The translations under genes and the position numbers were made by a program. The notes under the pieces were generated by a model. That model was given only the letters and a program-made list of their open reading frames with translations. It had not been told where the DNA came from and made no database searches. From contig NZ_SIJK02000029.1 in NCBI RefSeq assembly GCF_004762035.2, forward strand, positions 1 through 64,000: a stretch of DNA of 64,000 bases, in the 5' to 3' direction. The stretch comes from Candidatus Chloroploca mongolica. Its GTDB lineage: Bacteria; Chloroflexota; Chloroflexia; Chloroflexales; Chloroflexaceae. Below are positions 34,202 to 47,476 of this stretch, piece after piece; within the stretch, counting starts at the first letter, position 1, and each line of letters starts with the position of its first letter.

Positions 34202-34789
34202 ATGGAGTGGATCATTGCCCTGGCAACGGGCCTGGGTCTGGCGACAGCTTCGGGGTTGAACGCATATCTTCCGTTGTTGACAATTGGTATTTTTGCGCGC
34301 CTGGGGATGATTCAACTGGCCGAGCCATTTGATCTCCTTTCGAATGTGTTTGTCTTGCTGGTGATCGCAGTGCTAGCCGTGCTTGATTTTGCTGGCGACA
34401 AGCTTCCGGCTATTGATAGTTTTCTGCACGCAGCCGGGATGGTGATCAATCCTATTGCCGGAGCGATTCTTGCCCTGGCGAGCCAGGGTGATCTTGCTAC
34501 CGTCAGCCCAATTCTTGTTGGCGCGGCTGGCCTGATTGCTGCGGGTAGCACCCACGCGGCCCGGGCCTCGGTTCGTCCTGTCGTGACCGCTGCAACCGGG
34601 GGGACTGGCAATCCTATCATCAGTACCATTGAGGATGTGACCGCGTTAGTCTTGAGTATCTTGGCAATTCTTGTGCCAATTCTCGCGGTGGTTCTCGCGA
34701 TTGTGCTGGCGTTTGTAGCTTATCGGGTCTTCCGTCGGGCGGCCAAAATCTGGCGGAAAGAAGATGCCGTGACGAATGGGAAAATATAG
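34202..34789 (+). CDS. DUF4126-type integral membrane protein
   Basis: 195 residues, mostly hydrophobic, with about five helices and the family start WIIALATGLGLATASGLNAY. Short loops hold DKLPAIDSFLHAAGM and GSTHAARASVRP, a small-residue-rich stretch. The tail is basic (VFRRAAKIWRKEDAV). The family has no assigned function. The gene is alone on its strand until the cyclase/STAND gene 73 bp downstream, which has its own -10-like box. Confidence 0.75.
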   Translation: MEWIIALATGLGLATASGLNAYLPLLTIGIFARLGMIQLAEPFDLLSNVFVLLVIAVLAVLDFAGDKLPAIDSFLHAAGMVINPIAGAILALASQGDLATVSPILVGAAGLIAAGSTHAARASVRPVVTAATGGTGNPIISTIEDVTALVLSILAILVPILAVVLAIVLAFVAYRVFRRAAKIWRKEDAVTNGKI

Positions 34790-34862
34790 CGCCCCGAGAT
34801 AGTTGGCAGGTAGGCTATAATACCCATGTGGTGTTTGATTGCATGGCGTCAGGAGCCTGAAG

Positions 34863-37634
34863 ATGCCAACTGGCCCCTCAGGGACAGTCACGTTTCTTTT
34901 TACTGATATTGAGGGCAGCACACGCCTCTGGGAACAATACCAGGAGGCTATGGCCAGTGCCCTGGCTCGTCACGACCTTCTTCTGCGCGATGCAATTACG
35001 ACCAATGGTGGTACCGTCTTTAAGACCGTTGGTGATGCGTTTTGTGCCGCCTTTGTGCGCCCCGAGGATGCTCTGCAAGCGGCCCTGGACGCACAGCGTA
35101 GCCTGGTCACTGAGGCGTGGGGCGTAACCGGGAGCCTACGCGTACGTATGGCGTTGCATTCAGGCGACAGCGTTGTGCGTGATGGCGACTATTTTGGCCC
35201 CACCCTTAACCGGGTTGCCCGTCTGATGGCTACCGGGCATGGGGGGCAAATTTTGCTTTCGAAGGCGACCACATCGGCACTGTTGCCTGCGCTGCCTGCC
35301 GATGTAACGCTGCTTGATCTTGGGGAACGCCAACTCAAGGATCTCAGTCGTCCCGAGCATATTTTCCAGGTTGTTGTCCCCGATCTCCCCAGTTCTTTTC
35401 CGCCCCTCAGGACGGTTGATACCCGTCCGAATAACTTACCCGCGCAGACGACAGCCTTGATCGGACGTGAACGCGAGCTTGCTGCTGTCTGTGCCTTGTT
35501 ACGGCAACCTGAGTTGCGGCTTGTATCGCTTACCGGGCCGGGTGGTACCGGCAAGACCCGTCTGGCGATCCAGGTTGCCGCCGAATTGCTCGATTTTTTT
35601 GCGGGCGGGGTCTTCTTTGTGCCCCTTGATAGTATACGCAATCCCGATGATGTCTTGCCGGCGATTATGCATAGTGTCGGGATCAAAGAGCGCAATAGTC
35701 AGACGAGTCTCGCAGACCTGAAGGAAGGATTGTCGGCGTCCCCAACCTTGATTGTGCTCGATAATCTTGAGCAGGTTATCGCTGCCGTGCCACTGGTTGG
35801 TGAATTGTTGCAAGCGATCCCCTCGCTCAAGTTGCTGGTGAGCAGTCGTACGGTCTTGCAAGTCTATGGCGAAAACGAGTATCCGGTGCCACCCCTCAAG
35901 TTGCCACCGCTCAAACCACCCCCGCCTGTCCCTGAATTGGCAACCTATCCTTCGGTCACCCTCTTTGTTGAGCGCACCCAAGCGGTCAAACCATCCTTTG
36001 TTCTGACTGACACCAATGCGCGTGCGGTCGCCGAGATCTGTCATCGGCTTGATGGCTTGCCCCTGGCGATTGAGCTTGCCGCAGCGCGAAGCAAGCTCTT
36101 TGCCCCGCAAGCGCTCCTTGACCGTTTGAGCAACCAGTTTGAGTTACTGACGACAGGTGGGCGTGATCGCCCGGTGCGCCAACAAACGCTACGCGCAGCG
36201 ATTGCATGGGGCTACGATTTGTTGCCGCCGCTTGAACAACGTCTCTTTCAACGTCTCGCCGTCTTTGCCGATGGTTTCACGCTTGAGGCTGCTGAAGCGA
36301 TCTGCTTTGACCCCGAATTGCCGGATCTCTTCACCGGAATTGAGTCGCTGTTGAGCAAAAGCCTGCTGCGCCAGGATCTCGATTGTGAAGATACGTTGCG
36401 TTGCGATATGCTCGGAACCATCCGTGCGTATGCCCTTGAACAACTCGTTGCGACAGGGGAGTTTCCTATGATGCAAAGACACCATATTTCGTACTATGCC
36501 ACCTTTGTGCAAGAGGCTGAGCCTGAACTGCGCAGTGCCGATAATAACCATTGCCTTGAGTTATTTGACCGGGAGCATGACAACTTGCGGGCGGCACTGT
36601 CTTATTGTGTGGAGCACAACGAAAAGCTCCGCTCTTTGCAACTGGGGGGTGTGCTCTGGCGATACTGGTGGGCGCGGGGCTATTTGCAGGAAGGACGGCG
36701 CTGGTTAGAGACGCTGATACAGTTCAGCGGGGATGAGCCTGTGGAAGAACGAGTGCAGGTCATCAGTGGGGCAGGGGTGCTTGCTAATGCCCAGGGGGAT
36801 CACGAGCGCGCTGCACACCTGCTCGAAGAGGCGCTGCACATACAGCGCAGCCTTGACGATCCCGCAACCATGGCATTTGTGGCGACCAATCTTGGCATTG
36901 CTGTGCTGCAACAGGGTGACTACCTTCGTGCGATTGCCCTTTTTGAAGAGAGTCTTGCCTTGCGGCGCACGCTTGGTGATCCGGTGAGCATTGCAAGCTC
37001 CCTGAATAACCTGGGCCTCTTGACGCTCTATCAGGGTGATTACGAACGCGCCGAACGCTTTTTCGAAGAGACGATCCTTTTGCGTCGGAGCCTCGGCGAT
37101 ACCTGGGGCATTAGCAATTCGCTCAATAATCTTGGCCTCGCCGCGTATTACCAGGGCAATTATGAAGAAGCGTTGAACTTTTGCAGCGAGAGTTACGGCA
37201 TTGCGATTGGTTTGCGTGACACCCATAGTCAAGGCTTAGCCCTGATCAACCTCGGACGCATTCTCGTTGCCCTTGGGCGCTATCAGGATGCCGTGAGTCA
37301 TCTCATTCAGGCCGTTGACCTCTGGTTTGAGCTTGGCAATCACGAATACATTCCCGAGTGCCTTGATGGCATTGCCGACATTCTTGCCCAGATGGGGGTG
37401 AGTGCGTCGGCGGCCCAGATCTATGGGGCCACGGCGGCGCTGCGGGCCACGTTAAAGGTTGCCTTCCCGCATAGTGAACAAATCCGCCGTGATGCGGCTA
37501 TGGCCGCGCTTGCCGCCGATCTGGGTGAGCAGTACGAGGCTTGTGTGCGGCAAGGAGCAGGGTTGTCGCTTGAGAAAGCGATTGCGTATGCCCATACGGT
37601 CATCGCTGAACATGTATCGGAAGATGATGACTAG
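34863..37634 (+). CDS. Class III nucleotide cyclase fused to STAND ATPase and TPR repeats
   Basis: 923 residues, soluble. Residues 5-170 are a class III adenylate/guanylate cyclase domain with metal-binding FLFTDIEGSTRLW and GDAFCAAFVRPEDAL. Whether the catalytic set is complete was not checked. A STAND/NB-ARC ATPase follows, with Walker A TGPGGTGKTRLAIQVA near 223, Walker B LIVLDNLEQV, and RLDGLPLAIELAAARSKLF. The last 350 residues are TPR units (e.g. HERAAHLLEEALHIQR, DYLRAIALFEESLALRRTLG). Such proteins probably couple a protein-interaction signal to cNMP or gene control. A cNMP-binding protein is encoded at 48400. The start at 34863 has AGGAG upstream; TATAAT lies at 34816-34821. Confidence 0.85.
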   Translation: MPTGPSGTVTFLFTDIEGSTRLWEQYQEAMASALARHDLLLRDAITTNGGTVFKTVGDAFCAAFVRPEDALQAALDAQRSLVTEAWGVTGSLRVRMALHSGDSVVRDGDYFGPTLNRVARLMATGHGGQILLSKATTSALLPALPADVTLLDLGERQLKDLSRPEHIFQVVVPDLPSSFPPLRTVDTRPNNLPAQTTALIGRERELAAVCALLRQPELRLVSLTGPGGTGKTRLAIQVAAELLDFFAGGVFFVPLDSIRNPDDVLPAIMHSVGIKERNSQTSLADLKEGLSASPTLIVLDNLEQVIAAVPLVGELLQAIPSLKLLVSSRTVLQVYGENEYPVPPLKLPPLKPPPPVPELATYPSVTLFVERTQAVKPSFVLTDTNARAVAEICHRLDGLPLAIELAAARSKLFAPQALLDRLSNQFELLTTGGRDRPVRQQTLRAAIAWGYDLLPPLEQRLFQRLAVFADGFTLEAAEAICFDPELPDLFTGIESLLSKSLLRQDLDCEDTLRCDMLGTIRAYALEQLVATGEFPMMQRHHISYYATFVQEAEPELRSADNNHCLELFDREHDNLRAALSYCVEHNEKLRSLQLGGVLWRYWWARGYLQEGRRWLETLIQFSGDEPVEERVQVISGAGVLANAQGDHERAAHLLEEALHIQRSLDDPATMAFVATNLGIAVLQQGDYLRAIALFEESLALRRTLGDPVSIASSLNNLGLLTLYQGDYERAERFFEETILLRRSLGDTWGISNSLNNLGLAAYYQGNYEEALNFCSESYGIAIGLRDTHSQGLALINLGRILVALGRYQDAVSHLIQAVDLWFELGNHEYIPECLDGIADILAQMGVSASAAQIYGATAALRATLKVAFPHSEQIRRDAAMAALAADLGEQYEACVRQGAGLSLEKAIAYAHTVIAEHVSEDDD

Positions 37635-37663
37635 CGTGTGCGGTCTTTCGTTTGAGAACGAGA

Positions 37664-37706
37664 TGACGCGACGTGGTGGCAGCAAAGCCGTCGCCACGTC
37701 GCGTCA
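37664..37706. terminator. Bidirectional hairpin between convergent genes
   Basis: A perfect 13-bp stem (TGACGCGACGTGG at 37664-37676; complement at 37694-37706) with a 17-nt loop, followed by CGTTGTTTG on the plus strand. It lies 30 bp after one stop and 11 bp before the other. Confidence 0.6.
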
Positions 37707-37716
37707 CGTTGTTTGA

Positions 37717-40700
37717 TTAGCGCCGCATAAGCGGCAGGTAGACGCGATCCGTCACATTGGTTGTGCGCGGTGCCAGCACCACGAGGCGGCCCACATTTGA
37801 CTCGGTTGAGGCGGTACGCACAACATAGTAGACCGAGCCAGGCGGGGTGCCTTTGGGTAGCGACAACTCGGCCTCGAAGTTGCCGCTTGCATCGCTGGTC
37901 GCCTGGGTTACTTCCGTATTAATCGCCTCTTGATTGAGCCCACGGAAGATCGTCACCGTTGTGCCAGGCGCAAATCCTGATCCCGATACATAATACCGGG
38001 CGTTATTGCCTGGTTCGAGATAGGGTGGCTTGATCTCCATGCGAGCCTGGATATCGGCAGCGGTCACTTTGCCCCACGAAGGCAGATAGCTATAACCATT
38101 GCCGGTGATCAAGAAGCCACGGTCATCCTCGAAGTTGTCATCCACCGCATTCAAAAAGAGCCCGATATCGTAGGTGTATCCGCCATCAACTGTATACGAT
38201 GCGGTGAGACCGCCGCTCTCGTCGGGCTTCCACGCCGGACGGAAGTTGACGCCTTCGCCGGTTTCTGGCGAGACAAATGGCCAGATGGGGTACTCCATGT
38301 CGTAGAAATAGCCAGTATCTTGCTTGGAGAAGCTCAACCGCCCGAGGTCGTAGCTGCCACTAAAGGGATTCTCAGCGACAAACGGATCTGGGGCCGGGCG
38401 CGGGTCAAGCCCCTGCATCACCCACGGATCGCCGACCCGCGTATAGAGGAAGGCCATCTCGTCGGTACCTGGGCGCCACGACGGGTAGTTGGTCCACAGG
38501 TAATCGCCCTCATACACTTCGTCGGTTGTGTGCAAGACGAGGTAGACAAGCCTTGGTGAACTGCCCATATAGTCAATAAAGCCAATCTGATTATAGATCA
38601 GATTGAATTCGACAGGATTGACGGTACTCTCATCTTCGAGCATCGTATAGCGGAACATGAGATATCTACCGTTGTAGTCGGCATTCTCATAGTAGACATT
38701 GTAATAGCGCTCCTCCACCGTGTTGTAAAAACCTGCACCCGGTCCAAGGATCATAATGTCGAAGTCGGTTTGTCCGGGTTGCTTGCTCAGGTTAAGATAG
38801 TGGATTGCCTGGCTGATCTCCCAGTCAAGCGGATCACTGCTACTGAGATCAAAGCGCAATTTGGTATAGAAAATGCCCCTCCGCAGCCCAGGGGCAGGTG
38901 TGGCGACAAAATCCCATGAGGGATCGTACGACTGTTCAATCGTGCAGGGCAGATCGTTGCCTGGCCCGTTCGGGCAATTGACGGTGCCAAAGGTGAGTTG
39001 CTGCGGTCCGCTGGCATTGCCAGGGCCAGTGCCGTCAGCGTCAACGAGGAAGAGATTCAGATTGAGGCTGGTGGCTTCGCTCGGCGTGGCATGGCGGTTT
39101 GAGACATAAACGACCTGTTGGCCGTCGGGCGACCAACGTGGATAACTATTGGCAAATCCATCACTGAGCAACGGGAAGGTTTCCGCAGTCTCTTCAGCCG
39201 AAGCGGTCGACTGAATACGGTAGAGGTCGCGTTGTTCAGTATTGACAACCCGCGCATAGACAAGATCGCTGAACGAGGCGGCTGCTGGCGGCGGGGGCGG
39301 TGGAAGCGTAGGATCGGGCTCTGGGTTCTGGACATTGGGCCACTCGCCGAGGTACTGCGCCCGGGCCAGGGTATACCAGGGCGTTCCCTGGATCGCAATC
39401 TGGCTATAGTTGATCGGACTCCGCGGATCAAAGCCACCAGCGCGTGGGTCAAAGCCCCCCGGCCGTCCAGCTGGCAACGGCATATGCACACTCAGCCCGA
39501 AGCTTTGTGGTGAGCGGGTACCATTATCTTCGGCAATGATCACATTGTTTTGGCCTGGAGTAAAGGCATTGATCAGAGCCTCGGCAGGGGTGGTGACACC
39601 CGTCAGATTGAGTGTGCGCACATTCTGGGCATAGTGGTAGAGATCGCGGAAGTCGCGGTCATGATAAAACTGGGTCTGTTCACCAGCAAGCAGCAGATCA
39701 CCGGCTGCACTAGAACCGACATTCAAGATGGCATTGGCGAAGTTATTGACCCGCTGGATCAGTTCATCGAAGGGCTGATCAAGATTGACCGCACTCACGG
39801 TAAACTCCTGGCGGGCTAGGCCACCGTCGTTGCCGCGATAGAAATTGGCATAGGCCGCAACAATCTGCGCTGCCCAGACCTTTGGATCAATCGTGGGATT
39901 CTGCAGCACCGGCCTGAGGAAGGTATGGTACGGGAAGCCCGGCCCCGGCACCACCTCCTCGGAGGCGACCATCAAGCTGACATAATCTTTGATTTCGTAG
40001 GCAACTTCGTACTGGCCCATCAGACAGGCGTCGAAGATGAGCAGATCGAACTGGCTCTTGCCGAGTGCAGCGAGGCCCTGTTGCAGCGCCTGCCGGAGCT
40101 CGAGCATATTCCAGAAGTTACTGCTCACATCATCTGTCTCGATGGCTTTCCAGCCACCTCCGTGATTCCAGATGACTACTGCATACTGGTTTGCAGGATA
40201 GTTTTGCTTGACAAAATTCATAAAACGCACAAACGTCGCGGGATCACCAGTATCAAGATTGCCACTGAAATCAGAATTGCCAGTCACATTGATCACCTTG
40301 TTGCTCTGCACTTCATAGAGGGTGGTAGGACGATTCGACTCATCACTGAGCACGACAATATTGACGTCGTTGGTTGTACCGCCAGACGCGATCATCTGAT
40401 CGATGTTGAACTGGGCATAGTTCGAGAGATCATTGTCGCCCGCAATATAAACTGCTACCGTCCACTGTTTGGTGGTAGGCTGACCAATCTGGGCGAGTTC
40501 GGGTGAAGGATCGAGCACGGGGAACGTGACCGAAGGCGGCCCAAGGGGTGGCAAGACGCTCCCCTGGGGGAGGCCACCAACCACGGTGAAGGCGGCACTG
40601 CTCTGGGTGAGTTGCGGATGCGTCGCGGCCTGCATCGCCCCGCTGAGCGTCGCCTCGATGGCGGTGAGCGTATGCACTCCATTCGTCATCGGCTCGGGAA

Positions 40701-41190
40701 TAATGAACGACGTACGGAAGGTGCCGTCAAAATCAGGCAAAATGAGGCGGCGTTCGGTGACATTGACCCCATTCCACAAGAGCTTGACGCGCTGATGGGG
40801 GGCATATCCAAAGCCCTGCACCTCGATCATGCTGCCTGGTTCGCCGCTCGCGTTGTTGAGCAACAGACGGCGCACATCTTTGGTCATCGAGCGATCAGCG
40901 AGACTGAGCAACGGCACGCCGCCAGCACGATCTGGGCTGCGCGCCGGACCTTCCATCGCAAAGATAGGCTTCTGGGCACTACTACGTGCCATTGCGCCAC
41001 TATCGCCTGATGGCATTGCCGCGCTCGCCTGGAGGGTCGTCGCAACGGATAGACGGGCCAGAGGATTATCGGTGGCTGGTTGGGCCTGTAGGGGCAGGAC
41101 AGCGAGGATCAACGCAAGGATACCAAGCATCGCAAAGATGCCGCCTAAACGAACACGACCATGTCTGCTACTCGAAGATAGGGTACGCAT
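37717..41190 (-). CDS. Secreted clostripain-family (C11) cysteine protease with beta-propeller and C-terminal tail motif
   Basis: 1157 residues with an N-terminal signal/anchor (basic, then GIFAMLGILALILAVLPL). Residues about 110-215 are an IPT/Ig-like domain. The C11 peptidase follows (about 245-620), with the catalytic His in VIWNHGGGWK and Cys in LIFDACLMGQYEVAYE. A TolB/PD40-type beta-propeller (about 650-1050; FANSYPRWSPDGQQVVYVSN) comes next, then a second Ig-like domain. The protein ends RVYLPLMRR, resembling the YLPL-type tails seen on many secreted Chloroflexota proteins. Clostripain enzymes cut after Arg or Lys. Monocistronic, divergent from the gene at 41391. Confidence 0.85.
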   Translation of the reverse strand: MRTLSSSSRHGRVRLGGIFAMLGILALILAVLPLQAQPATDNPLARLSVATTLQASAAMPSGDSGAMARSSAQKPIFAMEGPARSPDRAGGVPLLSLADRSMTKDVRRLLLNNASGEPGSMIEVQGFGYAPHQRVKLLWNGVNVTERRLILPDFDGTFRTSFIIPEPMTNGVHTLTAIEATLSGAMQAATHPQLTQSSAAFTVVGGLPQGSVLPPLGPPSVTFPVLDPSPELAQIGQPTTKQWTVAVYIAGDNDLSNYAQFNIDQMIASGGTTNDVNIVVLSDESNRPTTLYEVQSNKVINVTGNSDFSGNLDTGDPATFVRFMNFVKQNYPANQYAVVIWNHGGGWKAIETDDVSSNFWNMLELRQALQQGLAALGKSQFDLLIFDACLMGQYEVAYEIKDYVSLMVASEEVVPGPGFPYHTFLRPVLQNPTIDPKVWAAQIVAAYANFYRGNDGGLARQEFTVSAVNLDQPFDELIQRVNNFANAILNVGSSAAGDLLLAGEQTQFYHDRDFRDLYHYAQNVRTLNLTGVTTPAEALINAFTPGQNNVIIAEDNGTRSPQSFGLSVHMPLPAGRPGGFDPRAGGFDPRSPINYSQIAIQGTPWYTLARAQYLGEWPNVQNPEPDPTLPPPPPPAAASFSDLVYARVVNTEQRDLYRIQSTASAEETAETFPLLSDGFANSYPRWSPDGQQVVYVSNRHATPSEATSLNLNLFLVDADGTGPGNASGPQQLTFGTVNCPNGPGNDLPCTIEQSYDPSWDFVATPAPGLRRGIFYTKLRFDLSSSDPLDWEISQAIHYLNLSKQPGQTDFDIMILGPGAGFYNTVEERYYNVYYENADYNGRYLMFRYTMLEDESTVNPVEFNLIYNQIGFIDYMGSSPRLVYLVLHTTDEVYEGDYLWTNYPSWRPGTDEMAFLYTRVGDPWVMQGLDPRPAPDPFVAENPFSGSYDLGRLSFSKQDTGYFYDMEYPIWPFVSPETGEGVNFRPAWKPDESGGLTASYTVDGGYTYDIGLFLNAVDDNFEDDRGFLITGNGYSYLPSWGKVTAADIQARMEIKPPYLEPGNNARYYVSGSGFAPGTTVTIFRGLNQEAINTEVTQATSDASGNFEAELSLPKGTPPGSVYYVVRTASTESNVGRLVVLAPRTTNVTDRVYLPLMRR

Positions 41191-41329: not shown

Positions 41330-41376
41330 AAACACTCTTGATGCGCAGGGCGACGCCCCGTGTATCAAGAGTGTTT
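41330..41376. promoter_or_regulatory. Hairpin in a divergent promoter region, abutting a TATAAT box
   Basis: A perfect 13-bp stem (AAACACTCTTGAT at 41330-41342 with its complement at 41364-41376); the 21-nt loop itself contains GGGC-GAC-GCCC. The right arm touches TATAAT (41377-41382), 8 bp before the ATG at 41391. The rest of the 200-bp divergent region holds a TATACT-type box near 41270 on the minus strand. A regulator-binding site overlapping the promoter is one reading. Confidence 0.4.
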
Positions 41377-41390
41377 TATAATATGTCATC

Positions 41391-44300
41391 ATGAAGATTC
41401 ACCACTCCTTCAGGCTCGTCGCGTTGCTGCTGCTGAATGGCTTGCTGCTTGTTAGTTTTGCTGGCTTTGTCTGGGCTGATAATGCGCTTCATCGGGGCGT
41501 TGTCTTTACCCCTGACCCTGAGCCTATCCCACAGGCTGATGGCCCAACCCTGGGCATCAATCTGTTTAATGTTCATCTCGAACCAGACCCTGTGGCGGTG
41601 CAGCGTTCCTTTGAACTCTCGGCTGAACTCGGGGCGCGTTTTGTGCGGATGCAGGTACCCTGGGACGATCTTGAGATCCACGGGCGGGGTGATTTTGAGG
41701 ATCGGCGCAATGTTGAGGCCATCGGCGTAGTTTCGTCGTGGGCCAAATATGATCGGATTGCCCATGCCGCTCGTGCCGCCGGGATAGAGTTGATCTGGCG
41801 CCTCGAAAGGCCTCCCGTATGGGCACGTCGTCAGTTCGAGGCTGATCCGGTCTTTCAGGCCGGGTTGCTGGTGGATGGCAATTCGACCGGCCCTCCCGAC
41901 GATCTTGCGGATTATGCGGCTTTTGTGCGGGCTGTGGTCGAGCGTTATAACGGTAATGGGGTGGATGACGCCCCCGGTAGCCCGGTGGTGCGCTATTTCC
42001 AGATCTGGAATGAACCAAATCTCCGCAATGAGTGGAACTGGCACGATCCGCGGCCCGAGGATTTTGTTGAACTCTTGCGTGTCGGGGCCACTGCCGTGCG
42101 TGAGACAAATCCCGATGCGGTCGTCATCTTCCCCGGTCTTGCCCCGACCGATGGGCTCGATTTTCGTGCGCCAATGACCGAACTCGAGTACCTCGACCGG
42201 GTCTATCGAGCGGGCGGCGCGGCCTATTTTGATGTGATGGCAGCGCAGGGGTATGGTCTCGGTCAGTCGCCAGATGAGCATCGGTATGTCTTTTTGCGCG
42301 GTCGTGGCAACTGGAACTGGCAACGCCCGATTGATACTCGCAACGACGTGAGCCGGGTGGTGCTCTTGCGCGAGGTGATGGAGCGACACGGCGATCATGC
42401 GACGCCGATCTGGATCACCGAGTTTGGCTGGAATAGCGCCCCCGATCACATCCCGCCCGAGCGCCGTATGACCTGGGGGCCGCCGGTGAGCGAAACAACC
42501 AAGGGCGAATATCTGGTCGGCCAGATGGAACGCGCCCGCGACGAGTGGCCCTGGATCGGCGTGATGAATGTCTGGATGCTGCGCTACGGCGGCTATGCCG
42601 AGCCAGATCCCGCTGATCCAACGCCCTATTTTGCCCTGGTTAGCCGTGATTGGCAGATCCAGCCGTCGTTCGACATTCTGCAAGCCTTTGCGACCGCCCC
42701 CGCAATTGCCGGCGTCGGGGCGCATTCGTGGAACCATGCCGCCGTTGCCCCCCTGGCTGATGGATGGCGCTTGCAGTTCGCTGGGACACGCATTGCCCTC
42801 GTGGTTGATCAGGCCAACCCTGTGGCAGTGACGATCAATGGCGACCCGGTTGCGTTGCGTCACGCTGAGTCGGACGGGCGATCGCTGCTGGTCAGTGACG
42901 AATTGCCCGATAGCGTGCATGTGCTTGAGTTGCAAGGGCCGCGTGCGCCGGTGAGTTTCATTGTTGAGCGGAGTCGTCGGTGGGCTTTCTGGTGGGACTA
43001 TGGGGCGTTGGGTTTGCTTGCCCTGATGGCGGTCAGTGGCGCGGCGACGATGTTGGCAGCACCGCCTGTGCTTGTGCTGATGAGTCAGCGTGTTCGTCGT
43101 CTGCGTGGGCAGATGCTTGCACGCGGCGGATGGCTGGCCTACCTTGTGCAGACCGACACGCTTGTTGCGAGTGGCATGCTTTTCGCGGTGATCATTGCCT
43201 ACCGGGCTTCGCCCCAGGTACCGCTAACCCTCGCTGGCCTGTTGCTCTTCGCGATCCTGGCGGTGATGCGGCCCAGGGTGGCGCTGCTCTTTGTTCCCTT
43301 GACGTTGCCGCTCTACTTTATCCCCAAGTTGATCTTTGATAGCCGCTTTGGGTTGCGCGAGAGTGGCCTGGCGTTGCCGCTGCACGAACTCTTGCTGGTG
43401 ATCGCGCTTTTTGCGGCTGGCGTGCGCCTGGTCATTGAGGTGATGGCGCACTGGCTCAAGCGCCCGCTCCGCGAGCCGCAGGTGCTTGCCTTGCCTGGCA
43501 ACGCTATGTGTGCCTTGCGCGATCGTCGCCAGACCTGGTCGTTCTGGCTGCCGATCCTGCTTGTTGGGTTGGCAGCAGTCTGGGGCGTCGTCATTGCCGA
43601 GCAGCGCGGGCCTGCGTTGCGCGAATTGCGCTGGATGTTTGTTGGCCCAATGGTCTTTGTGGGGGTCGCCGCACTCTTTGGTCAGGCGTATCAACGCCCA
43701 GTGGTGCTTGCCTGGCTCACGGGTGGGGCACTCGCCGGGTTGGTTGGCTTGCTCCAGTTTGGTGGGCTCAATCTGGTGCCCCTCTTTGGCACCAAGGCAG
43801 GTTTTGGCGATGATAGCTTCTTTGTTGAGGGCGTAAGGCGCGTCGCGAGTCTCTATGGGCATCCGAATAATCTGGGCCTCGCAATGGGGCGCTATTGGCC
43901 CGTGGCGGCGGCGTTGACGTTTGTGGCGCTGCGTGCGGGTGGTGTACGCAGGGCATGGCCCTATGCACTGGTGACTCTGCTTACCCTGGGGGGCTTGCTC
44001 GTCTCGTTTTCGCGGGGGGCCTATCTGGGGATGTTGGTAGCGAGTGGTGTTTTGGCGCTCGCCCTGGTACCAGCAAAACTGTGGCGCACGCGGCGGGTGC
44101 TGGTGCCCCTCGCGATAGTCGCGGGAATCGGCGTGGTTGGGGTGATCCTGGTGATCATCCTCGATATCGAGCGGCTCAATCCATTTGGGGCAAGCAGCGG
44201 CGTGCGCGTGCAGACCTGGCTTTCGGCGCTGGCAATGTGGCGCGATCACCCGCTGGGCATCGGCCTCGACCAGTTTGGCCGCCTCTATCCAGCCTATATC

Positions 44301-44621
44301 AACCCGGCCCTGGCCGCGACCAACGAGATCAATACGGCGCATCCGCACAATCTGTTGCTTGATCTCGCCCTGCGGATGGGGCCGCTCGGTCTGCTTGCCT
44401 TCGGGTGGTTGCTCTTTAATTTCGCACGCGGGGCCTGGCAAACGCTTGCTCGCACTGGTGCGGCGCGGCACGCTGGCGCATACGGCCCCGTGCTAGTCGC
44501 TGGAGTCAGTGCCGCGATGGCGGGCGGACTTCTCCATGGCATGGTTGACCAGTTCTACTTCTGGCCAGATCTGGCGTTTGCCTTCTGGCTTATGGTGTGG
44601 GTGGAGTATGTTCATCGTTGA
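41391..44621 (+). CDS. Fusion of a glycoside-hydrolase-like domain and an O-antigen ligase (Wzy/WaaL) membrane domain
   Basis: 1076 residues. After a signal anchor (about 5-28), residues 50-430 form a TIM-barrel glycoside-hydrolase-like domain: ARFVRMQVPWDDLE, the acid/base glutamate in FQIWNEPN, and the nucleophile-type glutamate in PIWITEFGWN. A beta-rich linker is followed by about twelve membrane helices with O-antigen-ligase marks: RVASLYGHPNNLGLAM, SFSRGAYLGML and AHPHNLLLDLALRMGPLGLL. Ligases of this family move or polymerise lipid-linked glycans outside the membrane. A fused hydrolase could trim or remodel the same glycan. The predicted message may be nearly leaderless. Both catalytic halves look intact; activity is inferred. 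Confidence 0.82.
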   Translation: MKIHHSFRLVALLLLNGLLLVSFAGFVWADNALHRGVVFTPDPEPIPQADGPTLGINLFNVHLEPDPVAVQRSFELSAELGARFVRMQVPWDDLEIHGRGDFEDRRNVEAIGVVSSWAKYDRIAHAARAAGIELIWRLERPPVWARRQFEADPVFQAGLLVDGNSTGPPDDLADYAAFVRAVVERYNGNGVDDAPGSPVVRYFQIWNEPNLRNEWNWHDPRPEDFVELLRVGATAVRETNPDAVVIFPGLAPTDGLDFRAPMTELEYLDRVYRAGGAAYFDVMAAQGYGLGQSPDEHRYVFLRGRGNWNWQRPIDTRNDVSRVVLLREVMERHGDHATPIWITEFGWNSAPDHIPPERRMTWGPPVSETTKGEYLVGQMERARDEWPWIGVMNVWMLRYGGYAEPDPADPTPYFALVSRDWQIQPSFDILQAFATAPAIAGVGAHSWNHAAVAPLADGWRLQFAGTRIALVVDQANPVAVTINGDPVALRHAESDGRSLLVSDELPDSVHVLELQGPRAPVSFIVERSRRWAFWWDYGALGLLALMAVSGAATMLAAPPVLVLMSQRVRRLRGQMLARGGWLAYLVQTDTLVASGMLFAVIIAYRASPQVPLTLAGLLLFAILAVMRPRVALLFVPLTLPLYFIPKLIFDSRFGLRESGLALPLHELLLVIALFAAGVRLVIEVMAHWLKRPLREPQVLALPGNAMCALRDRRQTWSFWLPILLVGLAAVWGVVIAEQRGPALRELRWMFVGPMVFVGVAALFGQAYQRPVVLAWLTGGALAGLVGLLQFGGLNLVPLFGTKAGFGDDSFFVEGVRRVASLYGHPNNLGLAMGRYWPVAAALTFVALRAGGVRRAWPYALVTLLTLGGLLVSFSRGAYLGMLVASGVLALALVPAKLWRTRRVLVPLAIVAGIGVVGVILVIILDIERLNPFGASSGVRVQTWLSALAMWRDHPLGIGLDQFGRLYPAYINPALAATNEINTAHPHNLLLDLALRMGPLGLLAFGWLLFNFARGAWQTLARTGAARHAGAYGPVLVAGVSAAMAGGLLHGMVDQFYFWPDLAFAFWLMVWVEYVHR

Positions 44622-44688: not shown

Positions 44689-45105
44689 ATGACCCTGCAT
44701 GCCCACGGCACGTTCACGGTTCAACTCACCCCTCAGCCCCTTGCCGACCCCACTGCCGACAGCCTACTCGGCCGTCTCGCTATCGCCAAGGAGTTTCAGG
44801 GCGACATCACTGGCATAAGCCATGGTGAGATGCTCAGCGCCCGCAGCGCGGTCGATGGCTCAGCCGGCTATGTCGCCATCGAAAGATTCACCGGCACGCT
44901 CCACGGTCGCCGTGGCAGTTTCGTCCTCCAGCACAGTGGCACGATGACCCGCGGGGCCCAGCAACTCACCATCAGCGTCGTACCAGACTCAGGCACCGAC
45001 GAGCTAGAGGGCCTCACCGGGACGATGAATTTGCAGATCGCCGATGGTGTCCACGCCTACGACTTCATCTTTACCCAAGCAACCTCCCATGACACACCGG
45101 CTTGA
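44689..45105 (+). CDS. DUF3224-type protein
   Basis: 138 residues, a small soluble beta-barrel-like protein of the DUF3224 family (similar in shape to allene-oxide-cyclase-like barrels). It has alternating strands with HAHGTFTVQLTPQPLAD, KEFQGDITGISHGEML, YVAIERFTGTLHGRRGSFVL and GTDELEGLTGTMNL. No signal peptide. Function unknown. GAGGAG precedes the ATG, which was chosen over a longer in-frame extension inside the previous gene. The end overlaps the next glycosyltransferase by 17 bp, so it probably heads that operon. Confidence 0.85.
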   Translation: MTLHAHGTFTVQLTPQPLADPTADSLLGRLAIAKEFQGDITGISHGEMLSARSAVDGSAGYVAIERFTGTLHGRRGSFVLQHSGTMTRGAQQLTISVVPDSGTDELEGLTGTMNLQIADGVHAYDFIFTQATSHDTPA

Positions 45106-46270
45106 TCGTCTTGCCCAGGTACTCGGTTTGCTCTATCTACTTGACCGGCTCTGGAAGATCCTGGCTGTCGTCGCTTTTTTTCGGCGACCTCCGCCACCAG
45201 TGCCTACGCAATGGCCATCACTGACCTTGCTCTGCCCGATGACTCGGTCGCCCAATGATCTGCGATCAGTGCTGATCGCCAGAGCGCACCTCGTCTATCC
45301 TGGTCAGCACGAGTGTCTCTTGATCTGCGACCGTGAAGATGTTGCAACGCAGGCGATCTGTACGGAGGTAATGGAGCGTTATCCAACGTGGCCGGCGCGC
45401 ATCGTGCTGGCTGAGCCGGAGCATGGAACGCTGGCCTCGAAGATTGCTAAACTGCGCACCGCGTTGCCCGAGGCGCATGGCGAGGTGCTCTGTTTTGTTG
45501 ATGACGATATTCTCCTGCGACCCGATACCTTGCGCATTCTGGTGCCGTATGTGATGCAGCCCACTACGGGGGCAGCCTTTGGGTTGGCCTGTTATACACG
45601 CTGGCAGACGCTTGCCGAAAGCCTGATGAGCGGCTTTGTCAATACTAATGCGCTGCTTAGTTATGTGCCGGTGACCTATCTGGTCGAGCCATTCACAATC
45701 ACCGGCCACTGTTTTGCCTTGCGCCGTGAGGTTTTTACCGCAATAGGTGGACTAGAGGGCATGGAAGAACGGATCGACGATGACCACGAGCTTGCGCGGC
45801 GGGTGCGCAGATACGGCCTGCGTAACGTGCAGACCCCGTTGGTCTATGATGTAGACAACCGGCTTGCCCGTCTGCGCGATTATCACTTGCAGATGCGACG
45901 CTGGTTGGTGATCCCGCGCCAGGCAATGTTGCCGCACCTGAACCTTCGTGAGCGCAGCGCGATGCTGTTTGGGAGCCTCGGGAACCTGTTGCCGCCACTG
46001 CTGCTGCTGCTCGCCCTGGTGACGCGCCGACGTGTGCCGTGGCTGAGCCTCGGGTCGAGTCTGGGCTATGTTGCGACAACCCAGGCGCTGATCGAACGCA
46101 TCTATCTGGGCCAGGCGATGCCACTACGCCAGATGCTGTTGCTCCCGATCCTCAACTGGCTCACCCCCCTCTATGTCAGCGTGATCAGCCTCGGCAGCAA
46201 TACCATTGTCTGGCGTGGGCAACGCCTACGGGTTGAACGCGGAGGGACATATGCCGTCATCGAAGAATGA
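45089..46270 (+). CDS. Ceramide-glucosyltransferase-like family 2/21 glycosyltransferase
   Basis: 393 residues. An N-terminal hydrophobic helix (about 8-33) precedes the GT-A domain: LCPMTRSPNDLRSVL, HECLLICDREDVATQ, the DxD in VLCFVDDDILL, the EERIDDDHELARRVR acidic motif and QMRRW (QxxRW type) needed for catalysis. Three or more C-terminal helices complete the ceramide glucosyltransferase/HpnI topology. It should glycosylate a membrane lipid. The ATG at 45089 overlaps the DUF3224 gene. The following gene is its homolog (similar length and motif order, with slightly different residues), hinting at successive sugar additions. Confidence 0.82.
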   Translation: MTHRLDRLAQVLGLLYLLDRLWKILAVVAFFRRPPPPVPTQWPSLTLLCPMTRSPNDLRSVLIARAHLVYPGQHECLLICDREDVATQAICTEVMERYPTWPARIVLAEPEHGTLASKIAKLRTALPEAHGEVLCFVDDDILLRPDTLRILVPYVMQPTTGAAFGLACYTRWQTLAESLMSGFVNTNALLSYVPVTYLVEPFTITGHCFALRREVFTAIGGLEGMEERIDDDHELARRVRRYGLRNVQTPLVYDVDNRLARLRDYHLQMRRWLVIPRQAMLPHLNLRERSAMLFGSLGNLLPPLLLLLALVTRRRVPWLSLGSSLGYVATTQALIERIYLGQAMPLRQMLLLPILNWLTPLYVSVISLGSNTIVWRGQRLRVERGGTYAVIEE

Positions 46271-46297
46271 CGTTATGTATCAAGCAAAGGAAGCCGT

Positions 46298-47476
46298 ATG
46301 CGCTGGCTCTGGCGGTTGCTGATCATCCTGCTCTGTGGCGAGCGGTTGCTGAAACACCTGGCTGTGGTGCGGTTTTTTCGTCGTGCTCAGCCACCAGTCG
46401 AGGCTGACCCAGGGCTGGTCAGCATCATGCAACCGATCCTCAGCGGTGATCTGGCGCTGGCAGCATGTCTGGAGACCAATCTCGTAGCGCATTCAGGGTA
46501 TCAACGTGAATTTCTCTGGCTCATTGACGATGATGATGAGCCAGCGCGGCAGATCTGCACTGACCTGATGGGCCGCTATCCCTCGGTGGCAATTACGCTG
46601 GTGGCCTTGCCTGCCCCGCCGCCTGAGCACAACCCGAAGCTTGTCAAGCTGATCGCTGGAAGTGCCCGCGCACGTGGCACGGTCATCTGTGTGCTCGACG
46701 ACGATACCATGTTGCCCGACCATGGTCTAGAGCAGTGCCTGCCCTATCTGGCGCAGCCTGGGGCCGGGCTTGTCTTTGGCCTGCCCTACTATGTCAGTTA
46801 CGACAATGTATGGTCAGGTCTGGTAGCGACGTTTGTCAACAGCAGCAGCTTGATGACCTACATTCCGTTCAGCCTACTTCACGAGCCCGTGACGATCAAT
46901 GGCATGTTTTATGCCATCCGACGCACCACGCTTGAGGCTGTCGGTGGGTTCGCTGGTCTGGAACAACTTGTCGCCGACGACTTTGCCGTCGCCGATCGGT
47001 TGCGAAAACACGGCTATCGTCTGGTGCAGACCCCGGTGCGTCACGCGATCCGCACGACGGTCGCAGGGCCACGTCACTATCTGCGTTTGATGCAACGCTG
47101 GCTCATCTTCCCCCGCGAGTCGCTGATGCGTCATCTGCCACCGCACGAACTGGTACTGATCTATAGCCTGGTGGGGCTACCGACGTTTTTGCCGTGGATG
47201 GCACTCGCCGTGTCAGTGGGAAGACCGGGGCAGGCCACACGGGGGCTCTTTCTCGCCTATGCTGGCCTGAGCTACCTGATCTTTGCCTATCACAACAGGA
47301 GCTACCTCAACAGCGCAACCCCCTGGCGCTGGAGTTGGATGGTGCCCCTGGTGCAAATCCTGCTGCCTGCGCAATTCGTGAGCGCGTTGCTGGCCCCCCG
47401 GAGGATCAACTGGCGTGGACATACGATGCAGATCGAACGTGGCGGTACGCTCCGCCTCGTGCACCGGCGCGACTAA
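46298..47476 (+). CDS. Second ceramide-glucosyltransferase-like family 2/21 glycosyltransferase
   Basis: 392 residues with the same plan as its upstream neighbour: an N-terminal helix; SIMQPILSGDLALAACLETN; FLWLIDDDDEPARQ; the metal motif VICVLDDDTMLPDHGLEQC; VADDFAVADRLRKHGYRLVQ; LMQRW (QxxRW type); and C-terminal helices from LVLIYSLVGLPTFLPWMALA. It starts 27 bp after the previous stop. The stop TAA shares its last A with the next ATG (TAATG), a sign of coupling. The lipid acceptor and sugar are unknown. Confidence 0.82.
   Translation: MRWLWRLLIILLCGERLLKHLAVVRFFRRAQPPVEADPGLVSIMQPILSGDLALAACLETNLVAHSGYQREFLWLIDDDDEPARQICTDLMGRYPSVAITLVALPAPPPEHNPKLVKLIAGSARARGTVICVLDDDTMLPDHGLEQCLPYLAQPGAGLVFGLPYYVSYDNVWSGLVATFVNSSSLMTYIPFSLLHEPVTINGMFYAIRRTTLEAVGGFAGLEQLVADDFAVADRLRKHGYRLVQTPVRHAIRTTVAGPRHYLRLMQRWLIFPRESLMRHLPPHELVLIYSLVGLPTFLPWMALAVSVGRPGQATRGLFLAYAGLSYLIFAYHNRSYLNSATPWRWSWMVPLVQILLPAQFVSALLAPRRINWRGHTMQIERGGTLRLVHRRD

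Follow-up and report, generated by a model that had tools for sequence, protein, structure and literature searches.

Architecture of the fusion gene

We analyzed a 64,000-nucleotide stretch of DNA from the green filamentous bacterium Candidatus Chloroploca mongolica (contig NZ_SIJK02000029.1), referred to here as the window; the genome to which it belongs comprises 6.3 Mb in 160 contigs. A preliminary description of the window had pointed to a complete Wzy/WaaL-like membrane domain fused to a TIM barrel with glutamates in NEP and TEFGW motifs. The list of open reading frames of the window contains the corresponding gene as one intact plus-strand frame (41391–44621) with a single ATG start, 1076 amino acids plus stop, and no internal stops. 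From the N to the C terminus, the product comprises a membrane anchor, a barrel of clan GH-A, a beta-sandwich, a second membrane helix, and a complete Wzy_C/WaaL-type domain. Antisense frames within the gene (e.g., 41376–42935 on the minus strand) were taken as shadow frames.

A hydropathy scan divides the protein into a hydrophobic stretch (residues 5–30), a 506-residue soluble part, a helix (residues 537–565), an 18-residue Lys/Arg-containing loop, and a many-helix domain that runs to the C terminus. The first stretch is a putative N-terminal signal anchor (41391–41480) and is modeled as a helix spanning residues 5–34. The soluble part contains the barrel (approximately residues 46–440 by fold alignment; 41526–42710) with its predicted general acid/base E208 (WNEPN motif; codon 42012–42014) and predicted nucleophile E344 (TEFGW motif; codon 42420–42422), followed by the beta-sandwich, in which nine strands are predicted (residues 443–526; 42717–42968). 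The second helix and the linker behind it (residues 566–583, five Lys/Arg and no Asp/Glu) are encoded at 42999–43139, and the WaaL/Wzy-type domain (residues 584–1076, with R817, R939, H984, H986, and H1049) at 43140–44618, all on the plus strand. By the positive-inside rule, the charge of the linker would place the soluble, barrel-containing part outside, on the same face of the membrane where WaaL and Wzy enzymes have their active site.

Fold and family of the two halves

Pfam assigned the barrel a score of 21.2 bits against GH39 (PF01229), which is below the cut-off of 26. Among 42 related barrels (E up to 0.01), PF01229 matched 12 and PF00150 (GH5) matched 27, and the barrel was therefore not filed as GH39. 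In a single-sequence search of the PDB, the matches of the barrel were weak (GH39 xylosidases, E = 1.9e-5; PslG, E = 1.5e-3). A profile built from the 42 related barrels put PslG first (E = 1.1e-21), followed by a GH39 enzyme (E = 5.2e-16), and aligned the glutamates of the PslG motifs NEPN and TEWGW with E208 and E344. With the full-length model as the query, Foldseek placed PslG entries at ranks 1, 2, and 3 (E = 3.3e-10 to 3.7e-10). In VIA-align, GH5_18 entries reached Z scores of up to 22.1, slightly above those of PslG (20.0–20.3); only the PslG rows, at 18–19% identity, extended to residues 506–512 and so covered most of the beta-domain. A TIM-barrel fold of clan GH-A is thus supported, with the proviso that the underlying model is of modest confidence. 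We conclude that the barrel, as judged from profiles and predicted structure, is PslG-like and belongs to clan GH-A, with no CAZy family assigned, and that it is probably a glycosidase of the retaining type.

Both predicted catalytic residues of the barrel, and with them the corresponding claim of the preliminary description, held up in the loci that we fetched. The acid/base was a glutamate in all 93 barrel domains and the nucleophile in 91; aromatic residues around the active site were conserved as well. The remaining two barrels, solo copies from genomes G159 and G268 (L091:16035-17291 and L093:989-2242), have alanine in place of the nucleophile and retain the acid/base. Two long solo barrels, L104:7042-10071 (1010 amino acids) and L106:7581-9956 (792 amino acids), have other partners, and their branches in the barrel tree are long.

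The membrane half matched Wzy_C (PF04932) at residues 861–1004 with E = 3.4e-19 and 69.6 bits (cut-off 31.7), and so did all 27 related membrane halves at E up to 0.001. A profile of these 27 returned WaaL (7tpg/7tpj) as its sole significant match in the PDB (E = 2.6e-14). A model of the membrane half alone was better than that of the full-length protein (pLDDT 73, pTM 0.77); with it, WaaL was again the first hit in Foldseek (E = 3.4e-5), and VIA-align superimposed WaaL over 370 residues with Z = 20.5 and an rmsd of 4.9. The next-best folds, those of the FtsW/RodA (SEDS) peptidoglycan polymerases, scored clearly lower (Z = 9.6–12.1) and were absent from the profile matches. In 63 membrane halves from the fetched loci R817 and R939 were invariant, and H984, H986, and H1049 were present in 97%–98%; the conserved Arg and His residues align with those of WaaL in the 27-member profile. 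We take the conserved outer-loop Arg/His residues of Wzy_C proteins to be catalytic.

The membrane half also matched NCBIfam TIGR00947, the putative bicarbonate transporter IctB, with E = 2.3e-19, as it might if it were a transporter of this kind and no glycan transferase. The score of 69.7 bits is, however, far from the curated equivalog cut-off of 366.4, WaaL is the best match by both fold and profile, and the Arg/His pattern is conserved, which makes a transporter very improbable. We conclude, from profile and modeled fold, that the membrane half is a WaaL/Wzy-type domain with a GT-C-like fold. Membership of this sequence family does not tell a ligase from a polymerase: WaaL transfers O-antigen to lipid A-core, and Wzy polymerizes repeat units on the lipid carrier. 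Lipopolysaccharide (LPS) and key genes for it are reported to be absent in Chloroflexales (PMC7332563, excerpt). Of the label "O-antigen ligase" given in the preliminary description, the WaaL-like family and fold stand; a strict O-antigen ligase is improbable on account of the reported lack of LPS, which excludes the customary lipid A-core as the acceptor.

Conservation of the join and genomic context

Outside the window's own record, 12 loci showed the same join. It is present in three Chloroploca genomes (protein identity to the window's copy 96% in Candidatus Chloroploca asiatica and 93% in Chloroploca sp. Khr17, loci L038 and L041) and in three genomes of the same family that each consist of one contig (G029, G033, and G038). 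Fused frames occur in Chloroploca, Viridilinea (V. mediisalina, L049), and Chloroflexus records, and in other Chloroflexota families (f2, f6, f8, f24, f26, f34, f36, f63, and f83). Of 150 related genomes, 135 matched the query, fused or not, as did 155 of 400 sampled from the phylum. Comparison of the three Chloroploca genomes gave dN/dS values of 0.08–0.11 for the barrel, 0.11–0.16 for the membrane half, and 0.24–0.32 for the beta-domain, the highest of the four parts, all of which lie below 1; we conclude from these values that both halves are under purifying selection.

The concern that orthologs might be two separate genes, with the fusion a local error, proved half right. The halves are indeed separate, adjoining genes in f3, f4, f13, f29, f53, and part of f1, mostly as direct same-strand neighbors: the barrel stop overlaps the ligase start (ATGA) in L054 and L069, and the two lie within about 20 bases in L053. 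Together with a broken frame in G028, this is what an annotation or assembly artefact, or a gene in decay, might look like. Yet the chance that the fusion is one of these is negligible, because several genomes and families share the join and purifying selection acts on both halves. The observation made in the preliminary description is thus right, and more general than could be seen from the window alone.

The 93 barrels in the fetched loci comprise 47 fused, 15 same-strand tandem, and 31 solo copies, counts that are not frequencies, as the loci were hand-picked from the matches with a leaning to long frames. The fused copies include the broken frame of G028 (L064) and three frames truncated at the end of a contig (L031, L033, and L048); for two solo barrels, L034 and L065, a ligase match lies on another contig; and L036 was left out as a copy of L047. 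Genome G064 was counted as not fused, its fetched stretch holding two frames of 553 and 490 amino acids against a listed frame of 1182 amino acids. In G028 (L064:7307-10647) the break, which may be genuine or a sequencing error, falls in the membrane half, with the barrel and ligase residues 1–96 in one frame and ligase residues 145–494 in another.

In a tree of the 93 barrels, made by a quick method, the label "fused" requires at least eight changes, five of them forced by well-supported branches; on this unrooted tree, each may be a gain or a loss of the fusion. A tree of 78 ligases has a branch (SH-aLRT value of 98) that separates the partner ligases, fused and tandem, from the second ligases of the operons described below and three other Wzy_C proteins of the window's genome. 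The row labels disagree with position for L102_4078, L105_3696, and L080_10318 (labeled tandem), which are second ligases, and for L079_x17 (labeled second), which is a partner ligase.

In families f6, f26, f63, and f83 (fusion) and f13 and f29 (tandem pair), the genes lie in an operon with a second Wzy_C gene, an LPG_synthase_TM gene, and often a GT4 gene; an SDR epimerase gene belongs to the same operon in f6, f26, f83, f13, and f29 and was not found in f63. Within 6 kb at 57 loci of at least 9 kb, a second Wzy_C was present at 10/27 fused, 3/14 tandem, and 1/16 solo loci. The corresponding counts were 9/27, 3/14, and 0/16 for LPG_synthase_TM; 10/27, 3/14, and 0/16 for SDR; and 6/27, 2/14, and 2/16 for GT4. 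Nine of the 27 fused loci have both the second Wzy_C and LPG_synthase_TM nearby on the strand of the fusion, in most cases together with the SDR epimerase. Several operons have a solo barrel paralogue directly before the fusion. The window's own genome carries such genes on contig C149 (L110:5337-10526) and not on the contig of the fusion. There, a polyprenyl-phosphate sugar-1-phosphate transferase (domains Bac_transf and CoA_binding_3) is the first gene of an operon with an SDR epimerase, a second Wzy_C, and LPG_synthase_TM; the transferase points to lipid-linked assembly. Among the 400 phylum genomes, scored as query-positive when one or the other half matched with E no higher than 1e-20 and counted with no correction for kinship, the second ligase was found in 129: 125 had both query and second ligase, 30 the query only, 4 the ligase only, and 241 neither. 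Phosphomannomutase and sugar nucleotidyltransferase-like genes come after the tandem pair in the Roseiflexaceae loci L053 and L060.

Genome (chromosome) searches for the fusion were confined to the window's phylum. Outside it, 11 plasmid records matched, all 11 with the barrel only, and none of the 11 matches covered more than 80% of the query, so that the fusion was not found on these plasmids. In nine plasmid neighborhoods that we viewed (H3 and H11 being left out, and H10 being without annotation), an O-antigen-ligase gene was annotated near the glycosyl hydrolase in two, from Paracoccus (H2) and Deinococcus (H8), which lends weak support to a link between the halves. On plasmid pDAETH-4 of Deinococcus aetherius (L123:7647-12177), a glycosyl hydrolase gene of 1049 amino acids adjoins an O-antigen-ligase-family gene near a phage tape-measure gene, an odd setting for a ligase.

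Directly upstream of the fusion gene lies a near-perfect palindrome (41330–41376, assigned to neither strand), with two 23-nucleotide arms that are 87% complementary and separated by 1 nucleotide. It is unique in the genome, ends 15 nucleotides before the start codon, and recurs in two further Chloroploca genomes (L038 and L041). Within the window segment 41330–41390, a TATAAT ends 8 nucleotides before the ATG. Promoter-like sites of the form TTGACA-17-TAnnnT end 8–9 nucleotides before the ATG in L040, L043, L044, and L052; in the others of the 12 upstream regions examined, no such site was seen by eye. With so short a distance, the gene may be leaderless.

Farther upstream lie a short membrane-protein gene (34202–34786), which is the direct upstream neighbor of the fusion in L038, and a gene for a 931-residue adenylate-cyclase/TPR-like protein together with a clostripain-family gene (34839–41190), which are also present in L041 and absent in L038. 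Downstream, the window contains a DUF3224 gene, two tandem GT21-like glycosyltransferase genes (45044–47476), kept among the loci only in Chloroploca L038 and L041, and an alpha/beta-hydrolase-like frame, seen so far in Chloroploca loci only. This downstream set may be a chance neighborhood.

Proposed function and comparison with known systems

We favor, with moderate confidence, a bifunctional, outward-facing glycan polymerase or ligase that would carry its own endoglycosidase and act during the assembly of a lipid-linked surface glycan. Two membrane passes would hold the PslG-like barrel beside the WaaL/Wzy-type domain in one polypeptide. The membrane half would take a glycan linked to undecaprenyl diphosphate and polymerize it or transfer it to a cell-surface acceptor, a lipid-linked substrate being suggested by the sugar-phosphate transferase of the operon and by WaaL/Wzy biology. 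At the same site the barrel would cleave the nascent or mis-handled chain internally, trimming or releasing it during assembly, in the manner of PslG, which is bound to the inner membrane in Psl synthesis. Fusion or gene adjacency would keep hydrolase and transferase at one to one. That the halves are kept fused or adjacent across Chloroflexota suggests that cutting is part of building the surface glycan.

Several observations weigh against this assignment. The full-length AlphaFold model, based on 14 sequences, has a mean pLDDT of 66, a modest confidence. In Chloroflexaceae and Roseiflexaceae, and in most Chloroflexales, the gene or pair lies mostly outside a glycan operon, and no operon genes were found within 6 kb of the fused Chloroflexus-type loci L050–L052. 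The 31 of 93 barrels without an adjacent ligase partner indicate that the barrel can work without one. For PslG itself, Baker et al. (2015) concluded from an over-expressing strain that it is not needed for synthesis (cited in PMC6813494, excerpt).

In an alternative reading, the barrel would be a turnover or release enzyme for stalled or finished chains, or for wall remodeling, merely tethered to the transferase and with no part in synthesis or chain length. Consistently, PslG degrades Psl when periplasmic or added externally (PMC6813494, excerpt), and the barrel paralogues, soluble or with a single anchor, that adjoin the fusion in several operons are what a wider clean-up family would be expected to show. 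The repeated coupling of one barrel clade to one ligase clade argues instead for a shared substrate at the time of transfer, and we regard mere turnover as possible and rather unlikely. A barrel acting mainly as an endo-transglycosylase, which would cut the polymer and pass it to an acceptor so that the protein both polymerizes and grafts, would agree with the retaining fold type (GH39 is called retaining in PMC11912335, excerpt), with the aromatic residues conserved around the active site, and with the profit that a joined transferase would draw from it. We saw no sequence feature that sets it apart from a hydrolase, however, and PslG itself hydrolyzes (PMC11912335, excerpt), so this activity seems improbable.

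The preliminary description had proposed one protein that cuts and joins the same glycan, for example to process the chain length of sheath polysaccharide, which is plausible in outline. In the most far-reaching reading, both halves would act in turn on one undecaprenyl-linked chain and set the size or release of the glycan, with the barrel cutting or transglycosylating the chain during its synthesis. Such a protein would be the LPS-free equivalent of a WaaL/Wzy enzyme with an editing function of its own; so specific a scheme is tentative and, as we see it, unlikely. Cryo-tomography has revealed outer-layer or external density in Roseiflexus castenholzii, Chloroflexus aggregans, and Ca. Viridilinea mediisalina (PMC7332563, excerpt), and a sheath may be one option among several for the envelope glycan served. 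A role of the barrel as a Wzz substitute was rejected, Wzz matches being present in 61 of 61 genomes examined. In the window's genome Wzz occurs in three places, the two listed being on other contigs, and LytR-CpsA-Psr ligases (four places) and Wzx-type flippases (seven places) are also present.

Polysaccharide operons often encode a hydrolase, whose part in synthesis is disputed, as it may help the process or only clean up after it; for PslG, two studies disagree on whether it is needed for synthesis (PMC6813494, excerpt). A natural fusion, gained or lost repeatedly, of a PslG-like enzyme with the polymerase or ligase itself would be direct genetic evidence for a cut at the assembly site, and it offers a single protein on which the question becomes testable, as well as a first entry point to the surface glycan of a phylum for which LPS has not been reported. 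If both halves do act on one chain, a single polypeptide would govern how large a surface glycan common to the phylum Chloroflexota becomes, or its release. The families are known and the combination is new, and the familiarity of both parts limits the surprise. No paper describing the fusion was found in the open-licence PMC literature, which does not show that it is undescribed.

Hydrolases of exopolysaccharide operons include PslG, PelA, PgaB, BcsZ, and PssZ (PMC6813494, excerpt), and the system described here resembles theirs in that a hydrolase is encoded with synthesis genes and, in some cases reported in that excerpt, is needed for output. The closest relative of the barrel with a solved structure is PslG (PDB 5bx9, 4zn2, and 9g17), which aligns with model residues 32–512 and shares the fold including the beta-domain, the two glutamates, and an N-terminal membrane anchor; it works in the Psl exopolysaccharide pathway. 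To our knowledge, all five hydrolases are either separate proteins or fused to a modifying domain, and never to a Wzy/WaaL-type transferase. PslG is a retaining endo-beta-glucosidase (PMC11912335, excerpt) that localizes chiefly to the inner membrane; in its absence Psl fell by up to 80%, and a double Glu mutant failed to restore it (PMC6813494, excerpt). The function of the membrane protein PslJ is called unclear (PMC10569066, excerpt). Unlike the protein described here, PslG is a separate protein with no membrane transferase fused to it; the identity is about 18%, and Psl itself is not implied as the glycan. PslJ is presumably a member of the Wzy_C family. WaaL (7tpg/7tpj), in turn, shares with the membrane half its fold over 370 residues, a Wzy_C match above cut-off, and the aligned Arg/His residues; what sets the Chloroploca protein apart from WaaL is the extra, anchored glycosidase.

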